A stretch of 33,008 nt of DNA. Source: a virus. This document shows positions 1 through 33,008 of this stretch, in pieces (within the stretch, counting starts at the first letter, position 1; each line of letters begins with the position of its first letter). A program made the translations under genes and the position numbers. The DNA is taken from the IMG/VR virus record IMGVR_UViG_3300037485_000995, positions 1 to 33,008 of that record; one strand, 5' to 3'. The notes under the pieces are model-generated. The model saw only the letters and a list, made by a program, of their open reading frames with translations. It did no database searches and had not been told where the DNA came from.

Positions 1-280
1 TATTTGAGTAGCAATTATCTTTTGTTTTTGCGTTTCTAATTTATTAACATCAGTCAAAAGTTTTCTTTCTGCTGTTGATAATTCACCAGTTAGCCTTATA
101 TTTTCTTTTATTTTATCATTTAAATCCATTACACTTTTAGGTGATTGACCACCATTAAATGAAAGTTGTAGTTTTGAAATTGCTACAACTTCCTCGTGTG
201 TTTTGGTTAATGATTTATAAAGGTCATCAAGTTGTTTTTGTGCCTCTTTACTTACTATTAAGTCAATACTATTTGCCATT
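1..280 (-). CDS. Tape measure protein, N-terminal fragment cut by the window edge
   Basis: This is the first 93 residues of the tail tape measure protein, read from the ATG at 278-280 to the window edge. It is nearly identical to the start of the complete copy at 29820-32690; one visible change is Met in place of Thr in the SVxDLND stretch. The region is helical and rich in Lys and Glu, as usual for the coiled N-terminus of these proteins. The start overlaps the last 12 bases of the upstream gene, as in the right-hand copy. The truncation is the contig boundary, not a mutation. Confidence 0.9.
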
Positions 281-597
281 CTTTTGTGATTTTATTGTTT
301 TTTCAGCTTGTTTTTGGAATTCAATCCATTCTTTTACTGTGATTTCTTTTGCATCCAGTTTGTATTTTAATTCTAAAATACGACTAACAGATATTAATTG
401 TGATTCAATACTTTGGCTTTCCTGTTGATCATCTTTTTTAAGTTCCAATTGCAATATCTCTATTTGCGTTTTCACGTTCTGCAATCTTTGGTTTATGCTT
501 TCAATTTGTGCAAATATATCTTTTGCCCTATCTATTTTATAATGCCATTTTTCAAGTTCCCATGTTAAGGCGTGAAACATATCAATGTTTAAACCTT
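1..597. repeat. Left copy of diverged terminal duplication
   Basis: This segment aligns without gaps to 32412-33008. I counted about 39 substitutions in 597 positions by eye, and no insertion or deletion. Positions 1-126 and roughly 194-319 are identical; the rest carries the differences, mostly at third codon positions. It covers the N-terminus of the tape measure gene and the C-terminal half of the gene before it. The window is therefore one genome unit of about 32411 bp plus an overlap from a second, related variant. Confidence 0.95.
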
Positions 598-17766: not shown

Positions 17767-18213
17767 TTAAAATTTTATTGTTATACTTGATTTTCTTGGG
17801 GTGGTGCTTACCACTGGTACGTCATTTCCGTACATATCAATAACATTTTGTTTTTGCGCTAATTTTAGCAATTCCGCCCTTGCATCCAAATCAGCTTTTA
17901 ATTGTTGGTAAATTGGATCATCTGAATAGTTCAAAGTATTTCCGCCATTGACTGGTGTAAATTCAACGCCCATAACAGTCTGTTTTTCTTCATTGATATG
18001 TTTTCTCGCTTCAATCATTGCAGTGCTTATAACCTCGTTTAAACGTGCTAAATTTGCAATAAATTCCATTTTGTCAACGTTACCATTATCCAGTAAATCG
18101 GTAACTAATTTAATACCTACTTTTTGCGCTTCTTTTTTTGTGAAATTTGAATCGTACATTGTTACGAAATCCTGCGCTCTTAATTCTAAAAATGTTTCTG
18201 AATTTGCTCCCAT
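17767..18213 (-). CDS. Hypothetical early protein upstream of erf (148 aa)
   Basis: A helical, charged protein (ELRAQDFVTMYDSNFTKKEA; later MIEARKHINEEKQTVMGVEF) with a predicted coiled part around residues 40-75 and another around 105-125. No enzymatic motif is visible. Being 3 bases upstream of the erf gene it is probably co-translated and may assist recombination, as accessory proteins in this position do, but I cannot name a family. Confidence 0.65.
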   Translation of the reverse strand: MGANSETFLELRAQDFVTMYDSNFTKKEAQKVGIKLVTDLLDNGNVDKMEFIANLARLNEVISTAMIEARKHINEEKQTVMGVEFTPVNGGNTLNYSDDPIYQQLKADLDARAELLKLAQKQNVIDMYGNDVPVVSTTPRKSSITIKF

Positions 18214-18563: not shown

Positions 18564-18667
18564 TAGTATCTGAATATGAAATTAAGAATAAAAATAATTG
18601 CTAAATAGTAAGCGAATTTAATCTGATAGTCTTTTTTTAGTAAAAAAGTTTTTATAATATTTTTCAT
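18563..18667 (-). CDS. Very small membrane peptide (34 aa)
   Basis: ATG at 18665-18667 (MKNIIKTFLLKKDYQIKFAY), with the C-terminal half YYLAIIFILNFIF forming one hydrophobic membrane segment. It begins inside the 3' end of the helix-turn-helix gene (50-base overlap, other frame) and ends in a TAATG overlap with the next small frame. It could be a real membrane micropeptide or a chance frame. Confidence 0.4.
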   Translation of the reverse strand: MKNIIKTFLLKKDYQIKFAYYLAIIFILNFIFRY

Positions 18668-18800
18668 AAGTTGCTGGTTTTAAAATAAATTTTGAATCTA
18701 ATAATTTGTTTAAATTTTGTCTTTGGATGCCGATTTGGTCGGCAAATTCTCCTTTTGTTAATTTGCTTTTTTCAAATAGTTTGATTAGTTTATGGTTCAT
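18618..18800 (-). CDS. Small helix-turn-helix regulator, Cro/XRE-like (60 aa)
   Basis: Nearly the whole protein is one helix-turn-helix: LIKLFEKSKLTKGEFADQIG then IQRQNLNKLLDSK (about residues 5-37), matching the spacing of Cro/XRE-type DNA-binding domains, followed by a short basic tail. As the first gene of this transcript unit, and the only clear small repressor-like protein in the window, it is the natural candidate to bind the 18-bp operator shared by three early promoters, including its own (18903-18920). That link is inference. Its leader contains the tRNA-like fold at 18821-18866. Confidence 0.75.
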   Translation of the reverse strand: MNHKLIKLFEKSKLTKGEFADQIGIQRQNLNKLLDSKFILKPATYEKYYKNFFTKKRLSD

Positions 18801-18819
18801 AAATAATTAATTAAATTAG

Positions 18820-18866
18820 TAGTTAGGTTGAGAATCGAACTCAATAAAGTATCCATTACCCTAACT
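18820..18866 (-). ncRNA. tRNA-like acceptor stem plus T-arm in an mRNA leader
   Basis: Read on the minus strand: AGTTAGG (18866-18860), a 15-base single strand (18859-18845), TTGAGTTCGATTCTCAA (18844-18828), CCTAACT (18827-18821), then A. The two 7-base arms pair perfectly as an acceptor stem. The middle piece is a perfect 5-bp T stem with the canonical 7-base T loop TTCGATT, directly abutting the acceptor strand as in tRNA. The D and anticodon arms are missing. After the discriminator-like A the sequence is CTA, not CCA. It lies in the leader of the helix-turn-helix gene, downstream of the promoter box at 18894-18901. It may be a processed RNA, a tRNA mimic for RNase P or other enzymes, or a tRNA relic. 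Confidence 0.65.
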
Positions 18867-18893: not shown

Positions 18894-18920
18894 CAAATAT
18901 AAATAATATTTTAGTATTAC
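18894..18920 (-). promoter_or_regulatory. Early promoter box with shared 18-bp operator (HTH gene)
   Basis: TATATTTG (18901-18894 on the minus strand) fits TAnnTTTG. The plus-strand 18-mer ATAATATTTTAGTATTAC at 18903-18920 matches those at the promoters near 10.0 and 19.2 kb. A TTG at the -33 position is not present (TTA is). RNA would start near 18888, giving an 88-base leader that contains the tRNA-like fold. The operator overlaps the stop codon of the gene upstream. Confidence 0.5.
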
Positions 18921-19144
18921 GTAAGTATTAAATCAGAAAATTTTTTATTTACTTCAAATATTTTTCCTAAAATAGCTGAAAATACTATAATTTCATCATC
19001 TGTAATTCTAAGTATTGAGGCCTCAAATCTATATTGACCTTCTCCCAATTTACACATTAATGATCCGTATTTATACTTATAAGTGAATGTAGAACCCAAA
19101 TCCGTTTTAAATTCTTTCTCGTCTAAAAAATCTTGCTTTGTCAT
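18917..19144 (-). CDS. First early gene, hypothetical protein (75 aa)
   Basis: A small, mostly beta-strand protein (TFTYKYKYGSLMCKLGEG; EASILRITDDEIIVF) without membrane segment or known motif. It is the first gene after the late-operon terminator and sits directly behind a good promoter (19171-19202), so it is likely among the first proteins made after infection. Early promoter-proximal phage genes often act on host functions; that is only a suggestion here. Confidence 0.65.
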   Translation of the reverse strand: MTKQDFLDEKEFKTDLGSTFTYKYKYGSLMCKLGEGQYRFEASILRITDDEIIVFSAILGKIFEVNKKFSDLILT

Positions 19145-22411: not shown

Positions 22412-25400
22412 TTATAAAGAATAAACTCCTAATGTTAATAAATCAAATTGCCCTGTGTTAGTTACTCCAGCACCCATACAACGTGAAGCCGTAAAATTCA
22501 AACCTTGCGTATCTATTGGTAAATTTGTGCTAATTGTACCCATTACAATACTTCCTGTTTCTTTATTTCTTACGCAATATTTTACTTCACTTGCATTGTT
22601 TTCGCTGTAAATTTCAATCGAATAAACAGTTGTTAATGCAGATCCAGCTGTTCTATTTGCTGGAAAGTTAACACCAAGATCAACTTTTGTTGCAGTTCCT
22701 GTCGCATCGTTGTGAAATACTTGAAGGTTTGTATCTAAAGCATCAGAACCAACCCCGATAATGTTAACTAATGATGAAACCAAAACAGAATCAGAATAAC
22801 CTAAATCCGTTGTTTGGCCAGCCATTCCGTAAAATTGTCTGCATCCAGAACCAAATGCAGTATCTGAAATATAAACATCACAAACATATTTAAAACCACC
22901 ACCAAGAAACCAAAGTAAAGCCGAACCCCTTGTTCCTGTATAACGACCAGCAGAAACTACCGAACCATAAAATCCTTTACGTACTTGTTTACTTGCGTAA
23001 TTTGTAGAAGATACAGACCTTGCAATTGTTGAACCTGTGGTTGCTATTGTAATACCACCGCTTGTAACTTCAGTAGTTGAATTGTTTGAATAATTAACAC
23101 CTCTAAATGTTTCGTGACCTCTTAATTTAGGAATAAAACCTTCATAATTAGGTATGTTTAAAGTAGTACCTACTAAAGTGGCAACACCAGTATAATTATT
23201 TGTTGTTAGCGTTATTGCATCTTGTTTAGCATCAAAATCAAGCCAATCTGTAAAACTCAAATATCCACTATTAACACCTGAAGCCTGACCGATAATTGAC
23301 TCAATATTTGAATTTGTCAAAAAACCATCAATTTGTGCTTTTGTATAATACTCTAAAACTCCAACACTTGTAGGTGTATAAAGAATGTTTATTTTATCAC
23401 CAGTTTGTAAAGTATCTGATATTGTTAATGTAGTAGTTACAAAAGAATATTGACTGCTATTAAGTTCCTGACCATTAACAAAAACAGCATAAATATCTGA
23501 AGGAGTGCCAGAAAGCGTGAAATTTTGAGCGCCTGAAAAACTAAATTCTTGCCTTGTTAATGGTACACCTAACAATAAATTTCCAGATCCTAAAACACTA
23601 TTTCCATTTATTGTTTTGATATTTGAACCAGAAACCAACAAATCCTGTTTATCGTTGAATGTACTCCAATCGGTTGAACTTAATGCGCCTCTATTTGTTG
23701 CGCTTGCCGTTGGTAAATTAAAGGTGTGCGTATCTGTTGCCGAACTAATTCCAAAGTCAGCGCCTGTTGTTCCTGTTGCAAAATATTGAGATTGTTCGGT
23801 TAAACCGTTTAAAGCATTTAAACCTGTAGAAAATGTAGTTATAATTTGCGATAAATGGCTATTTTCGGTATGCATTGTAATAGTACGACCACTATGCAAT
23901 ACATAAAATCTTACTGCTAATCTATCCGTCGCAAGTAATACAGTAGGAGGAACTGCTAACGCTGTAAAATACAAATCAATAGCCGTACCACCTGTTATAT
24001 TTTCAGGTGTTGCAGAATTTGAAGAAATTAAAGTAAAAGTAGTTCCATTATATTTATATAATTCGATATAAAATCGAGGACTACCACCGCCTGAGGATGC
24101 GCTAAAATATGTTTCAAAATTCCAATTACCTCCAGGAATTAATAATTTGTTTGGATTTCCTGAATCAGTAATGAATTGAGCAATATAACCATCTGCATTT
24201 ATAGTAAAATCCGTTCCAGCACCAATTACTGGTGTTCCGTCAATTTCTTTATAAGCAACACCGCCAATTGTACCCTGTGAAACGCTACCATTCAAATAGT
24301 AAGAAACCGAAGCCCCGCCACCGCCTGTAGTTGGGAAATTTGCCAAAGTACCATCACCTCTAACATATTGAGAAGCAACCCCAGCGCCAGTTACTGCAAT
24401 ATCTCCGCTTGATGTTATTGGACTGTTTGTAACGCTAAATGCGCTCGGCATTGTTAAACCTACACTTGTAACTGTGCCACCAGTTAAATCATCGGTTGTA
24501 GCAATTGTATAACTACCAACTGCTTTCTGTGGAAATTCTAAATTAACATTATTTGCAGTTAAATTATTAGCTTGTATTGTTCCTTCAAAATCTCCGCTAT
24601 TTACAGCAATCGTTCCATTATTATCAATAAATGCATAACTATTATTAGCATCATTTGCTGTATAAACATTGCTGGTATAAACATTTGTATATTCATCACC
24701 AAGTTGTACATTTAATGAATTTGTTGTGCTATTTCCATTATTTGTTACATATTGCAAGTCTATCAATTCCAATTCCCAAACGGCTGTATCATCTGTGTTA
24801 TCAGTACAAATGTATAAAGTTCCATCATCTAAAATCCATCTACTACCAACAATAAAACCTTTGGTTATATCATCGTAAATAGTTGGTGTCGTTGTGAAAT
24901 TATGAGATACTTCTCTAATTGTTACACCGCCATCACCCATCACATAAAGCCTTCCAGCTTCCCATTTCAATTCATAACCAACAGCGCAAATTTGCGCCAC
25001 ACCTTTTGAACCACCATAACCAGCATCAATGGTTCCCTCTTTTAATTTAGATCCATTATCTAAAATAATACCTACACCAGTATCAAATATGATATCATTT
25101 GTAGTTGTATTTCCGTTATCCGTTACATCTTGCAAATCTTGCGAACCACCGCCACCAGTACTTGATATAATTGGATTTAAAGGATCAGTGTCATCAATTG
25201 TTACATTTGTTCCAGCAACAACACTTTCTATGTACGAAGTTGGGATGTCCCCATCCCTATTAAAACCCGTATATTTGAGCGCTTCCAATCTTAACATCAA
25301 AGCTTGTGCGCTTGCAAATGTTTCTGGAGTACCCATATCAGTATCATCATAAACTGTGATATCAGTATATGAATATTCCCTTCTATTGCTACCGCTTTCC

Positions 25401-29819: not shown

Positions 29820-32690
29820 TTATACGATCCTTCCTTTAGTTGTTAATCTGCTGTTTAATATCTCACGTGTACGACCATTTGAACTTATCATTTTCTTAAA
29901 TCCATTTTCATTTATATCAATTGCCACCTCATTTGATCCGCTATATTTTCTAAAAACACTTTCCAAATCATCTTTATTTATTCCGTTGGTTTGGTTTGTT
30001 TGTAACGGTGAAATATTGTTTTTCAAAAGTAAGTTATTAATTTGTTTGCTCCATTGATCAGGTGTAAAAATTTGCGTTCCTTTTGGAGCATCAACTACTT
30101 TATTTCTGCCTTTAAACTGTCTAATTTTTCCATCTGGTGTTACTACTGTTTCCTGATATTTTGAACCTTTAGCATCGTTAATTAACATCCTACCACCTTC
30201 GTGAACCCCACCTTCGGCAAACGCTGGAATTTCTTGTGATGCTACCATAGCCAATTGAGCGGCTCCAATTGCACCAACTACCAAAGACAATGGAATACCA
30301 GCGAATCCAGTCTTACCAAGTGTTGCAACAATAGCCTGTGCAGTATTAACCGCTATATTAAATAAGGCCATTCTTTTTTCGGCTTCGGCTTGTCTTCTTT
30401 GTATTACTTTGCGTTTTTCTTCGTATTGTTTCTCAATTTCAGCTCTGGCCGTTGCACTACTTCCAGCAAATGCAATAGAAACATTTTTTTGTTGTTCTAA
30501 ACGTGCATATTCAGCGTTAAAACGTGCTTCACTTTGTTTCATTAATGTATTGGTTAATTCTTGCCCAATTTCCATCATTGCAACCGCTGTTGTTTTCCAA
30601 TCATCACCAAATCCTTTAATTTCTTTATTCATTACCTTAAACAAAGTTGGCGTTCCTGATTCACTTCCAAATTGATCATAAAAACCTTTTAAATAATCTG
30701 TCATTTCTTCAGTAGCTTTTTTTGTTTCTTCTACTGCTTTTGGCATTTCGTGAAGCATTGGAGCTAATGGCTTTCCTTTTGTTATTTCGTCAATAGAAGC
30801 TTGTATTTTGTCAATTATTAATTGATAATTCTTATATTCTTCATTTGATTTGCTTACATTTTTTTGTATTTCTTTCCATTTAGAAATTTCAGCTTCTAAA
30901 GTTGGAATTACACCTTTTGCATTTTCATTTGTTAAATTTTGAGCTTCTAAATGTTCTCTTTTAGCTTTAGTATTTTTCTTTGTTGATTCTGTATTGTTGT
31001 CAATTTCTTTATTTTCTTTTACTAATGCATTTTTTAATACTTCAACACTACCAATTCTTCTATACATTACTTCATTTAGTCTTTGAATTTCTTTAGAATT
31101 TTCAGCTATTAAGTTTGTATTTTCTTTTGTCAATTGACCAAATGGACTTCTTGCACCTGTTTTTTGAATATCTTTATTTTTTTGAGTTAATTCATCAAAC
31201 TTTTTTCTATCGGTTTGTATTTTATCCTCTAATGACAATATCATTGCTCGGACTTTTTGTTCTTGTTCTGGTGTTCCTTTATAGTTTTTAAGTACGTTTT
31301 CCGCTTCTTCTTTCCCTATGTTTTTAAGTTCTAATAATTGTTCTTTTCTTATTTGAGTATCTGATTTTAACCATTCAGTAAACTTTGATAAATCTTTTTG
31401 AAATTTACCTAAAACTTTAGATCCTATATTTGAAATAACACTTTCGCCATAATTTAACTGTCTAATAAAATCAGTCCAAGCGTTTGTAAGCCTTGTTTGT
31501 GCAGCTGCTAAACTTTCTACTCTGTTTTTATTTTCAATTCCGTATGTTTTCTCTAATTGGCGCGCGAACTCTGGCAATACTTCAGAAGCTAAGACCTTAC
31601 CATCTTGCATCATTTTACCTAACTGTTTTTCAGTTACGCCCATAGATTTAGCCATAATACCAAACGCACCCGGCAATGCTTCGCCTAATTGACCTTTTAG
31701 TTCTTCAGCACTAACAGTTCCTTTTGACATCATTTGATTAAGTGCGGTAAATGCTCTATTTTGAGCATCAACACTTAAACCCATAAAACCAGCAGATTTG
31801 GCAACACTTTCAAATATTTGTTGTATTTCTTTTCCGCTTATTTTATCTTTTGCACTTACATAAAATTGAGTGAATTGCTTTGTAAGTCCGTTTATTTCAA
31901 TACCATATTTTTCAGAAATATCACTTAAAAACGCTTGACTTTCTGCAAATTTAGAATCAGTTTCAACTACTTGCTTAAGTGCTAAATCTAATGATTGCAA
32001 TTCTTTTGTGGTATTAAAAATATCTTTTGCAATATTTGCAAATAATGATAAACCACCAGCAATTCCAAACGCACTCATTAAATTTCCAATTCCAGCAATT
32101 GCCTGAGTTGGATAATTACCTACGTTTCTATTAAATTTACCAACGGCAGTATCTGCCTGAAGTACTTTTTTATTTAATCCATTAAATTCATTTTGAGCCT
32201 TGTCTAATTCTCTGTTATATTCTTTTTGCGTTTGTGTTGCTGTTTTTCCTCTTGCAATAATATCCTGTACCCTTCTGGCGCTTTCTGCTTGTTGCTTACT
32301 TAATTGTAAATATGCACTCGATAATTTTTCATTTGCAATCCTAACTCGATCAGCTTCTTTTGCTTCTTTATTTGCTAAATCAATATTAGATTTCCTTTGT
32401 TGGTTTTCTTTTATTTGAGTAGCAATTATCTTTTGTTTTTGCGTTTCTAATTTATTAACATCAGTCAAAAGTTTTCTTTCTGCTGTTGATAATTCACCAG
32501 TTAGCCTTATATTTTCTTTTATTTTATCATTTAAATCAGTAACACTTTTAGGCGATTGACCACCATTAAATGAAAGTTGCAGTTTTGAAATCGCAACAAC
32601 TTCTTCGTGTGTTTTGGTTAATGATTTATAAAGGTCATCAAGTTGTTTTTGTGCCTCTTTACTTACTATTAAGTCAATACTATTTGCCAT
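29820..32690 (-). CDS. Tail tape measure protein (956 aa)
   Basis: This sets tail length and passes into the cell at injection. The N-terminal 200 residues are coiled coil. A tape measure domain follows (about 230-420): KYGIEINGLTKQFTQFYVSA, GTVSAEELKGQLGEALPGAF, IMAKSMGVTEKQLGKMMQDG and VLPEFARQLEKTYG are strong family signatures. Hydrophobic segments occur near residue 200 (GNLMSAFGIAGGLSLFANIA) and near 815-840 (GIPLSLVVGAIGAAQLAMVA), followed by FAEGGVHEGG, a typical late tape measure phrase. At about 1.5 angstrom per residue the length would imply a tail near 140 nm, an estimate only. The first 12 bases overlap the preceding gene. Confidence 0.93.
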   Translation of the reverse strand: MANSIDLIVSKEAQKQLDDLYKSLTKTHEEVVAISKLQLSFNGGQSPKSVTDLNDKIKENIRLTGELSTAERKLLTDVNKLETQKQKIIATQIKENQQRKSNIDLANKEAKEADRVRIANEKLSSAYLQLSKQQAESARRVQDIIARGKTATQTQKEYNRELDKAQNEFNGLNKKVLQADTAVGKFNRNVGNYPTQAIAGIGNLMSAFGIAGGLSLFANIAKDIFNTTKELQSLDLALKQVVETDSKFAESQAFLSDISEKYGIEINGLTKQFTQFYVSAKDKISGKEIQQIFESVAKSAGFMGLSVDAQNRAFTALNQMMSKGTVSAEELKGQLGEALPGAFGIMAKSMGVTEKQLGKMMQDGKVLASEVLPEFARQLEKTYGIENKNRVESLAAAQTRLTNAWTDFIRQLNYGESVISNIGSKVLGKFQKDLSKFTEWLKSDTQIRKEQLLELKNIGKEEAENVLKNYKGTPEQEQKVRAMILSLEDKIQTDRKKFDELTQKNKDIQKTGARSPFGQLTKENTNLIAENSKEIQRLNEVMYRRIGSVEVLKNALVKENKEIDNNTESTKKNTKAKREHLEAQNLTNENAKGVIPTLEAEISKWKEIQKNVSKSNEEYKNYQLIIDKIQASIDEITKGKPLAPMLHEMPKAVEETKKATEEMTDYLKGFYDQFGSESGTPTLFKVMNKEIKGFGDDWKTTAVAMMEIGQELTNTLMKQSEARFNAEYARLEQQKNVSIAFAGSSATARAEIEKQYEEKRKVIQRRQAEAEKRMALFNIAVNTAQAIVATLGKTGFAGIPLSLVVGAIGAAQLAMVASQEIPAFAEGGVHEGGRMLINDAKGSKYQETVVTPDGKIRQFKGRNKVVDAPKGTQIFTPDQWSKQINNLLLKNNISPLQTNQTNGINKDDLESVFRKYSGSNEVAIDINENGFKKMISSNGRTREILNSRLTTKGRIV

Positions 32691-33008
32691 TCTTTTGTGA
32701 TTTTATTGTTTTTTCAGCTTGTTTTTGGAACTCAATCCATTCTTTTACCGTTATATCTTTTGCGTCAATCTTATATTTTAGCTCTAAAATACGGCTAACA
32801 GATATTAATTGTGATTCAATACTTTGGCTTTCCTGTTGATCGTCTTTTTTAAGCTCTAATTGCAATACTTCGATTTGAGTTTTCACGTTCTGCAATCTTT
32901 GGTTAATGCTTTCAATTTGTGCAAATATATCTTTTGAACGATCTATTCTATAATGCCATTTTTCAAGTTCCCAAGTCAATTGATGAAACATATCAATATT
33001 TAAACCTT
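32412..33008. repeat. Right copy of diverged terminal duplication
   Basis: Counterpart of 1-597 at a constant offset of 32411 bases, with about 39 substitutions and no gaps. The reading frames are preserved in both copies. This is where a circular map would close. Confidence 0.95.
32680..33008 (-). CDS. Putative tail chaperone gene, C-terminal fragment cut by the window edge
   Basis: The right-hand partial copy of the gene at 269-835. About the last 108 residues are present. Over the 103 that can be compared from MFHQLTWELE it differs from the left copy at six positions: Q/A, R/K, S/A, V/I, I/L and D/E. Its stop overlaps the tape measure start by 11-12 bases, as in the left copy. The missing start is due to the window end. 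Confidence 0.85.
   Translation of the reverse strand, partial: GLNIDMFHQLTWELEKWHYRIDRSKDIFAQIESINQRLQNVKTQIEVLQLELKKDDQQESQSIESQLISVSRILELKYKIDAKDITVKEWIEFQKQAEKTIKSQKNGK

Follow-up and report, generated by a model that had tools for sequence, protein, structure and literature searches.

The stretch of DNA analysed here (the window) is a virus record of 33,008 bases in which the minus strand holds most of the genes. By terminase, the nearest isolates are Flavobacterium phages (57% identity), and the promoter-like boxes in the window are of the Bacteroidota TAnnTTTG type; the virus appears to be a phage of Bacteroidota-type bacteria. The ends of the window (1-597 and 32412-33008) are direct repeats of 597 bases with 93.5% identity, so that the record probably covers an entire genome, circularly permuted and closed by two strain variants. 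At the locus of interest, a promoter-like box, a tRNA-like element and the gene of a small helix-turn-helix (HTH) protein were found with the following features.

18917..19144, minus strand: 75-aa open reading frame upstream of the element, kept in both close relatives
18903..18930, no strand assigned: AATACT/AGTATT repeats, operator-like, upstream of the -7 box, as read from the sequence
18894..18901, minus strand: promoter-like -7 box TATATTTG of the Bacteroidota TAnnTTTG type, by consensus match only
18860..18866, minus strand: 5' strand of the acceptor stem, AGTTAGG (perfect 7 bp)
18849..18859, minus strand: D arm GTA-ATGGA-TAC, loop with GG; GTA (18859-18857) pairs with TAC (18851-18849)
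18845..18848, minus strand: linker TTTA, 4 bases, replacing the anticodon arm and the variable loop
18828..18844, minus strand: T arm TTGAG-TTCGATT-CTCAA (TTGAG 18844-18840, loop 18839-18833, CTCAA 18832-18828)
18821..18827, minus strand: 3' strand of the acceptor stem, CCTAACT
18819..18820, minus strand: discriminator A73 (18820) and encoded C74 (18819); CA is not encoded, as is the case for tRNA genes of host and phage
18618..18800, minus strand: gene of a 60-aa Cro/C1-type HTH protein downstream of the element (HTH_3 match, structure model)

The initial annotation had placed the element downstream of a promoter-like box and ahead of the start codon of a small HTH protein, and this was confirmed. 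HTH_3 matched 6/6 homologues of the 60-aa protein (best E 1.4e-5), the predicted structure of the protein has four helices (pLDDT 84.6), and its ATG lies at 18800 on the minus strand, with the element between it and the TATATTTG box. The same box was found at the equivalent position in relatives. The open reading frames at 18917-19144 and 17767-18213 had no Pfam or PHROGs match. In the leaders of L053, L054, L055 and L058, which have homologous promoters, a palindrome GTAATTAAATTTAATTAC stands beside the -7 box; these palindromes and the 18903-18930 repeats look like operators of the HTH protein.

Direct reading from 18866 to 18821 confirmed a perfect AGTTAGG/CCTAACT stem abutting a perfect T arm, every pair of the acceptor and T stem being perfect; an eighth outer pair, T18867:A18820, may extend the acceptor to 7-8 bp. 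The 15 middle bases had been described as unpaired and the whole as a half-tRNA. Neither description stands, since a D arm (GTA/TAC with a GG loop) was found there and the anticodon arm alone is missing. The element is thus best described as a putative three-armed tRNA-like structure of 46 bases. It carries a 7-bp acceptor with discriminator, a T arm of the form TTCRANN and a 3-bp D arm with GG as in canonical tRNA, while a 5-bp anticodon arm with a 7-base loop is absent, only the 4-base linker being present. The GG of the D loop (ATGGA) is expected to dock on the T loop, and by sequence both elbow-forming parts are present as in mascRNA-like mimics. ARAGORN and Rfam gave no match at the locus, and among curated models neither tmRNA, Y RNA, T-box nor other Rfam families matched the element. 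A second, weak model match in the window (23141-23201, E 0.026) and another in G008 are at other positions and near chance, and were set aside.

For the chance estimate, the motif comprised a 7-bp stem and, directly next to it, a 5-bp stem closing a TTCRA loop, both without mismatches and with no more than 20 bases in the middle. It was found 19 times in 6,679 order-2 Markov windows with the trinucleotide composition of the window, an expectation of 0.0028 per random window that leaves out the D arm, the end bases and conservation. The earlier statement that the arrangement is hard to explain by chance was therefore supported. With up to 80 middle bases the expectation was 0.008 per random window. 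The element is the only Watson-Crick match to the motif in the window. For the isolated RNA, the minimum-energy fold is another hairpin inside the same outer stem (−12.9 versus −10.0 kcal/mol for the tRNA-like fold).

Two close relatives in IMG/VR keep both the element and the gene, whose protein is 98% and 82% identical. Their middle region reads GTAGTGGTAC, a D arm with GG, and their T loops differ solely at the variable position. The T stem shows a two-sided change in one of them (TTGAG/CTCAA to TTAAG/CTTAA, G-C to A-U) and a change to G-U in the other, and in one relative the outer pair of the acceptor is replaced by an A-A mismatch. Compensatory changes had been proposed as a check on the element, and the outcome was divided: the T and acceptor stems covary in the wider family described below, but covariation from the three closest sequences was not significant (pair counts within those of shuffles, 160/500), and a plain alternative hairpin is equally consistent with these three. 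The tRNA-like fold accordingly rests on the wider family, because the three closest sequences do not discriminate between the folds.

Among more distant phages, 24 loci with HTH homologues were compared. In L058/L043 and L059 (two records), the equivalent leader position is occupied by a 113-nt element whose D and T arms are those of tRNA-Leu and whose anticodon region is abnormal; the element scored 38 bits with the Rfam tRNA model (cut-off 29). L062 has a 72-nt tRNA-like element at this position, and its acceptor (TAGTCAGG/CCTGACTA, versus TAGTTAGG/CCTAACTA in the window) shows a paired change at pair 4 (T-A versus C-G). Three different tRNA-like elements thus occupy the same spot across phages. 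In at least ten further loci the same promoter is followed directly by the HTH homologue with no element (e.g. TATATTTGCATTTATAATCATAAAAACAAAATGCTATG); the HTH gene therefore does not need the element. The initial annotation had named the same HTH gene without the pairing as a refuting observation; these loci are of exactly that kind and speak against the regulatory-leader reading. The element is thus an optional unit after the promoter, exchanged between phages and travelling independently of the adjoining gene. Close copies of the 113-nt element were not found in INPHARED phages, nor were close copies of the 72-nt element in INPHARED and PLSDB.

Scans of IMG/VR recovered more than 200 distinct related elements (a lower bound), mostly with the acceptor AGTYAGG:CCTRACT. 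The scans were pattern-driven and the collections metagenomic, and most members were recruited by patterns fixing part of the 3' half, so that conservation there is partly by construction and the evidence rests on the unfixed parts. One scan, with the T loop, free bases and ACTACTAAT, gave at least 96 distinct elements, about half of which are not normal tRNAs, and a scan with an unbiased tail gave at least 170, with a matching acceptor in 164. The consensus is AGTCAGG TG GCG GAATTGGTAGA CGC, a variable middle, and ACAGG TTCGAAT CCTGT CCTGACT A C, the 5' half lying outside the search pattern. A trailing CTAAT, considered as a conserved motif, proved to be a pattern artefact; without it the tail is A73-C74 followed by A/T-rich sequence. 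The middle region ranges from 6 to 139 bases (median 52). The anticodon region is either deleted (forms of 42-62 nt) or swapped for unrelated inserts, and a canonical 5-bp anticodon arm was present in 3/149 long members versus 0.7 in shuffles. The inserts of long members, 216 in number, fell into 179 clusters, a few of them conserved with apparent paired changes.

A generic scan of 2.7 Mb with the acceptor unconstrained yielded 614 tRNA-like elements, 169 of which were rejected by ARAGORN. The acceptor [AG]GT[CT]AGG was carried by 145 of these 169 (ten with AGTTAGG, like the window) and by 0 in simulated DNA. About a dozen further elements of the same design have other, properly paired acceptors. 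In a Manatee Spring record the acceptor is AGTGCAG/CTGCACT, and the insert closely resembles that of AGTCAGG members; the acceptor pairs are therefore conserved as pairs. Up to six copies of the family were found on one stretch. Family-like members with other acceptors occur in MW202828 and in LR756501, a 735-kb uncultured phage. The Flavobacterium phage scanned, hattifnatt9-1, had no family member, and a crAss-like fragment (cr4_1) of similar look was rejected with an acceptor of only 6 pairs. In a related-phage locus (L216, L224, L287, L294 and L315), family members with quite different inserts were observed; the element stands directly after the TATATTTG box in L216, L287, L294 and L315, and a gene starting METTILANG lies downstream in L216 and L224. 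A hairpin of the GCTCGGAAAGACGAGC type was seen just 5' of long members in L074, L201, L215, L221, L272 and L299.

Short members, the class to which the window element belongs (listed members 42-62 nt), were collected from 27 contigs using a pattern in which neither the middle nor four of the T-stem bases were constrained. In 20/27, a D arm with a GG loop and a stem of 3 bp or more was formed, versus 4.25 ± 1.9 with shuffled middles (maximum 11, 500 trials), and the stems differed (GGAG/CTCC, CTAC/GTAG, GGAGA/TCTCC and GTA/TAC). The T stem was paired at 96-100% per position in the 27 members. When 26 members were selected without fixing the T stem, pairs 49-51 were formed in 26/26, versus shuffle maxima of 23, 24 and 25. 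All features defining the family (AGTYAGG:CCTRACT, D arm, T arm, A73-C74 and no anticodon arm) were found in the window. The short element is a member of a large phage family that keeps the top of tRNA and has lost or replaced the anticodon domain. At the level of sequence comparison, its structure, family, conservation, within-family covariation, 3'-end rule, position, and presence or absence between phages are well supported.

The 3' end and the genomic context were also compared with those of ordinary tRNAs. Host tRNA genes (a Flavobacterium MAG and Hymenobacter) mostly encode the discriminator and C74 and not CCA. C74 was encoded in 98% of family members versus 99% of ordinary tRNAs at the same loci, a rule of C74 without CCA that a plain hairpin would have no reason to obey. 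Long members have a D arm identical to that of host tRNA-Leu(CAA) and A73, and the AGTYAGG-type acceptor was absent from the tRNAs examined in two Bacteroidota genomes. Family members are mostly intergenic, standing singly or arrayed with ordinary tRNAs. An ORF start lies 8-70 bases downstream of 41% of members (25% of ordinary tRNAs, 19% of random sites), and a TAnnTTTG box lies at most 60 bases upstream of 13% (versus 3% of ordinary tRNAs and 4%). The downstream genes are many and unrelated to each other.

No description of this family was found in the open-access literature searched, which offered analogues only, and a phage family of anticodon-less tRNA-like elements seems not to have been described. 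Human mascRNA and menRNA, which resemble tRNA, are released from MALAT1 and MEN-beta by RNase P and RNase Z and receive CCA but are not aminoacylated; the part of mascRNA that both nucleases read consists of the T loop and two guanines of the D loop (PMC11693755), and the phage elements retain precisely this part. They share with the phage elements a tRNA-like unit within a longer transcript, an acceptor, a T arm and a reduced D arm with a GG elbow; unlike the phage short form, whose processing is proposed here, they are nuclear RNAs with an anticodon-like stem. In the TMERs of MHV68, function resides in the tRNA-like portion together with a stem-loop whose sequence is nonspecific, with processing by tRNase Z (PMC4838037). 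These are likewise virus-encoded tRNA-like elements in several copies, but they belong to a herpesvirus, are made by Pol III and consist of a predicted tRNA-like element followed by pre-miRNA hairpins. RNAC and RNAD of phage T4 are encoded in the T4 tRNA cluster. They are late-expressed small RNAs of unknown function (PMC9697503). Their likeness to the present family, as phage small RNAs, is one of description.

In the tRNA-like domain of tmRNA, acceptor and T arm close a large non-tRNA insert and there is no anticodon. The phage family resembles it in having acceptor and T arm without an anticodon, with inserts enclosed in the long members, and differs in that it has neither a tag reading frame nor a match to tmRNA, a real D stem is present in most members, and the inserts are mutually unrelated. 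The bacterial Y RNA module of YrlA mimics tRNA through the elbow. This elbow-based mimicry is shared, whereas YrlA ends elsewhere and has a Ro-binding stem, and the phage element has no Rfam match. Bacteroidota tRNA-Leu genes share the D arm of the long members (that of tRNA-Leu(CAA)), A73 and the C74 rule; unlike them, the phage family has no anticodon arm, and its AGTYAGG acceptor is absent from the host tRNAs examined.

We consider it fairly probable that the window element is a transcribed and processed tRNA mimic giving a stable, non-decoding RNA. It would be transcribed together with the HTH gene from the box at 18901-18894. Host RNase P would cut near 18866, 3'-end tRNA enzymes would cut near 18820/18819, and the CCA enzyme would complete the 3' end; RNase P processing and CCA addition are our best inference for this element. 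The freed product would be a stable RNA of about 46-50 bases, unable to decode, and the HTH mRNA would be left with a short 5' end about 18 bases before the ATG. What is selected would be the freed RNA, imitating tRNA or serving as a tRNA decoy towards tRNA-binding proteins, and/or the trimming of the mRNA. This course of transcription, cleavage, CCA addition and selected role is what we propose.

Phage tRNA genes are usually explained by codon supply. A family that keeps every tRNA-processing feature and drops decoding would show that phages exploit tRNA maturation for other ends: to punctuate mRNAs, to make stable small RNAs, or to supply decoys for defences aimed at tRNA. Programs that depend on an anticodon overlook many such elements or could give them a wrong label. 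Provided that the proposed structure holds, the 46-base form would count as one of the smallest natural tRNA mimics in which the three arms other than the anticodon arm are all present, and it would serve directly as a substrate in tests of the requirements of RNase P, the CCA enzyme, EF-Tu and LeuRS.

Two related readings concern what the RNA would do. More broadly and only tentatively, we suggest that Bacteroidota phages use a shared tRNA-top scaffold to make very diverse non-decoding small RNAs, the anticodon domain being removed or exchanged for unrelated structured inserts. These RNAs would target tRNA-binding proteins or defence systems of the host, and the window 46-mer would be the minimal, insert-free scaffold. 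It is also possible, though we would not put it higher, that the tRNA top loads and protects the RNA while the variable part (or the top itself in short forms) titrates a tRNA-binding protein, for example a host defence nuclease or synthetase. The 179 clusters among 216 inserts, some conserved with apparent paired changes, and the largely fixed acceptor agree with such a scaffold or decoy, as do the D arms of Leu type and the A73 of the long members; the anticodon is dispensable for LeuRS. Against it, short forms like that of the window have neither an insert nor a Leu D arm. The confidences expressed for these readings overlap and do not sum to one, because a scaffold or decoy role may coexist with a processed mimic.

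That the element is a decaying phage tRNA gene, drifting and functionless after loss of its anticodon arm, we regard as unlikely. Phages do gain and lose tRNAs, the element is missing from other phages with the same promoter and gene, and the long members share their D arm with host tRNA-Leu. Decay would, however, strike all arms, whereas in many unrelated members compensating changes keep the acceptor, D and T arms paired and only the anticodon region is gone or replaced; the ARAGORN-rejected elements, moreover, are mostly of one acceptor type, and up to six copies occur on one stretch.

A cis-acting leader, in which a bound tRNA-handling enzyme controls the HTH gene, is improbable. In three phages the element does stand after the promoter box and 20 bases ahead of the ATG, but the element-free loci share the same promoter and HTH homologue, others carry different elements, and the family precedes many unrelated genes and also occurs in tRNA arrays. 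The case for an ordinary hairpin or operator repeat with no tRNA meaning, which has the lowest-energy fold and an equal fit to the three closest sequences on its side, is very weak given the T-loop consensus, the GG of the D loop, the A73-C74 end and the presence of tRNA-like elements at this site in other phages. Least credible of all is an attachment site copied from a host tRNA, already called a weaker explanation in the initial annotation: several cyanophages do have a tRNA-Leu 5' half beside an integrase gene, the typical look of such a site, but no integrase match was obtained among the window proteins scanned, both tRNA ends are present and paired in the element, and its acceptor is absent from the tRNAs examined in two Bacteroidota genomes. 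The cyanophage matches, one-sided half-tRNAs beside integrases, were rejected as relatives and stand in contrast to the window element.

Two other kinds of odd tRNA-like RNA were observed during the scans. Tenacibaculum phage pT24, an isolated phage, has two near-identical genes, annotated as tRNA-Undet, with a long abnormal anticodon stem (L419, 390-468 and 757-835); considered as family members, they were rejected as a different odd tRNA. A second tRNA-ended type, whose scanned members had no match outside the tRNA model, has a core, CGTAATGA-GG..GG..CC-GAGTCC...AAGGTTG, that is conserved, and acceptors whose sequence varies while their pairing is preserved, and was found in L062, L071, L072, L095, L115, L119, L145, L241, L272, L273, L289, L296, L308, L336, L337 and L339.
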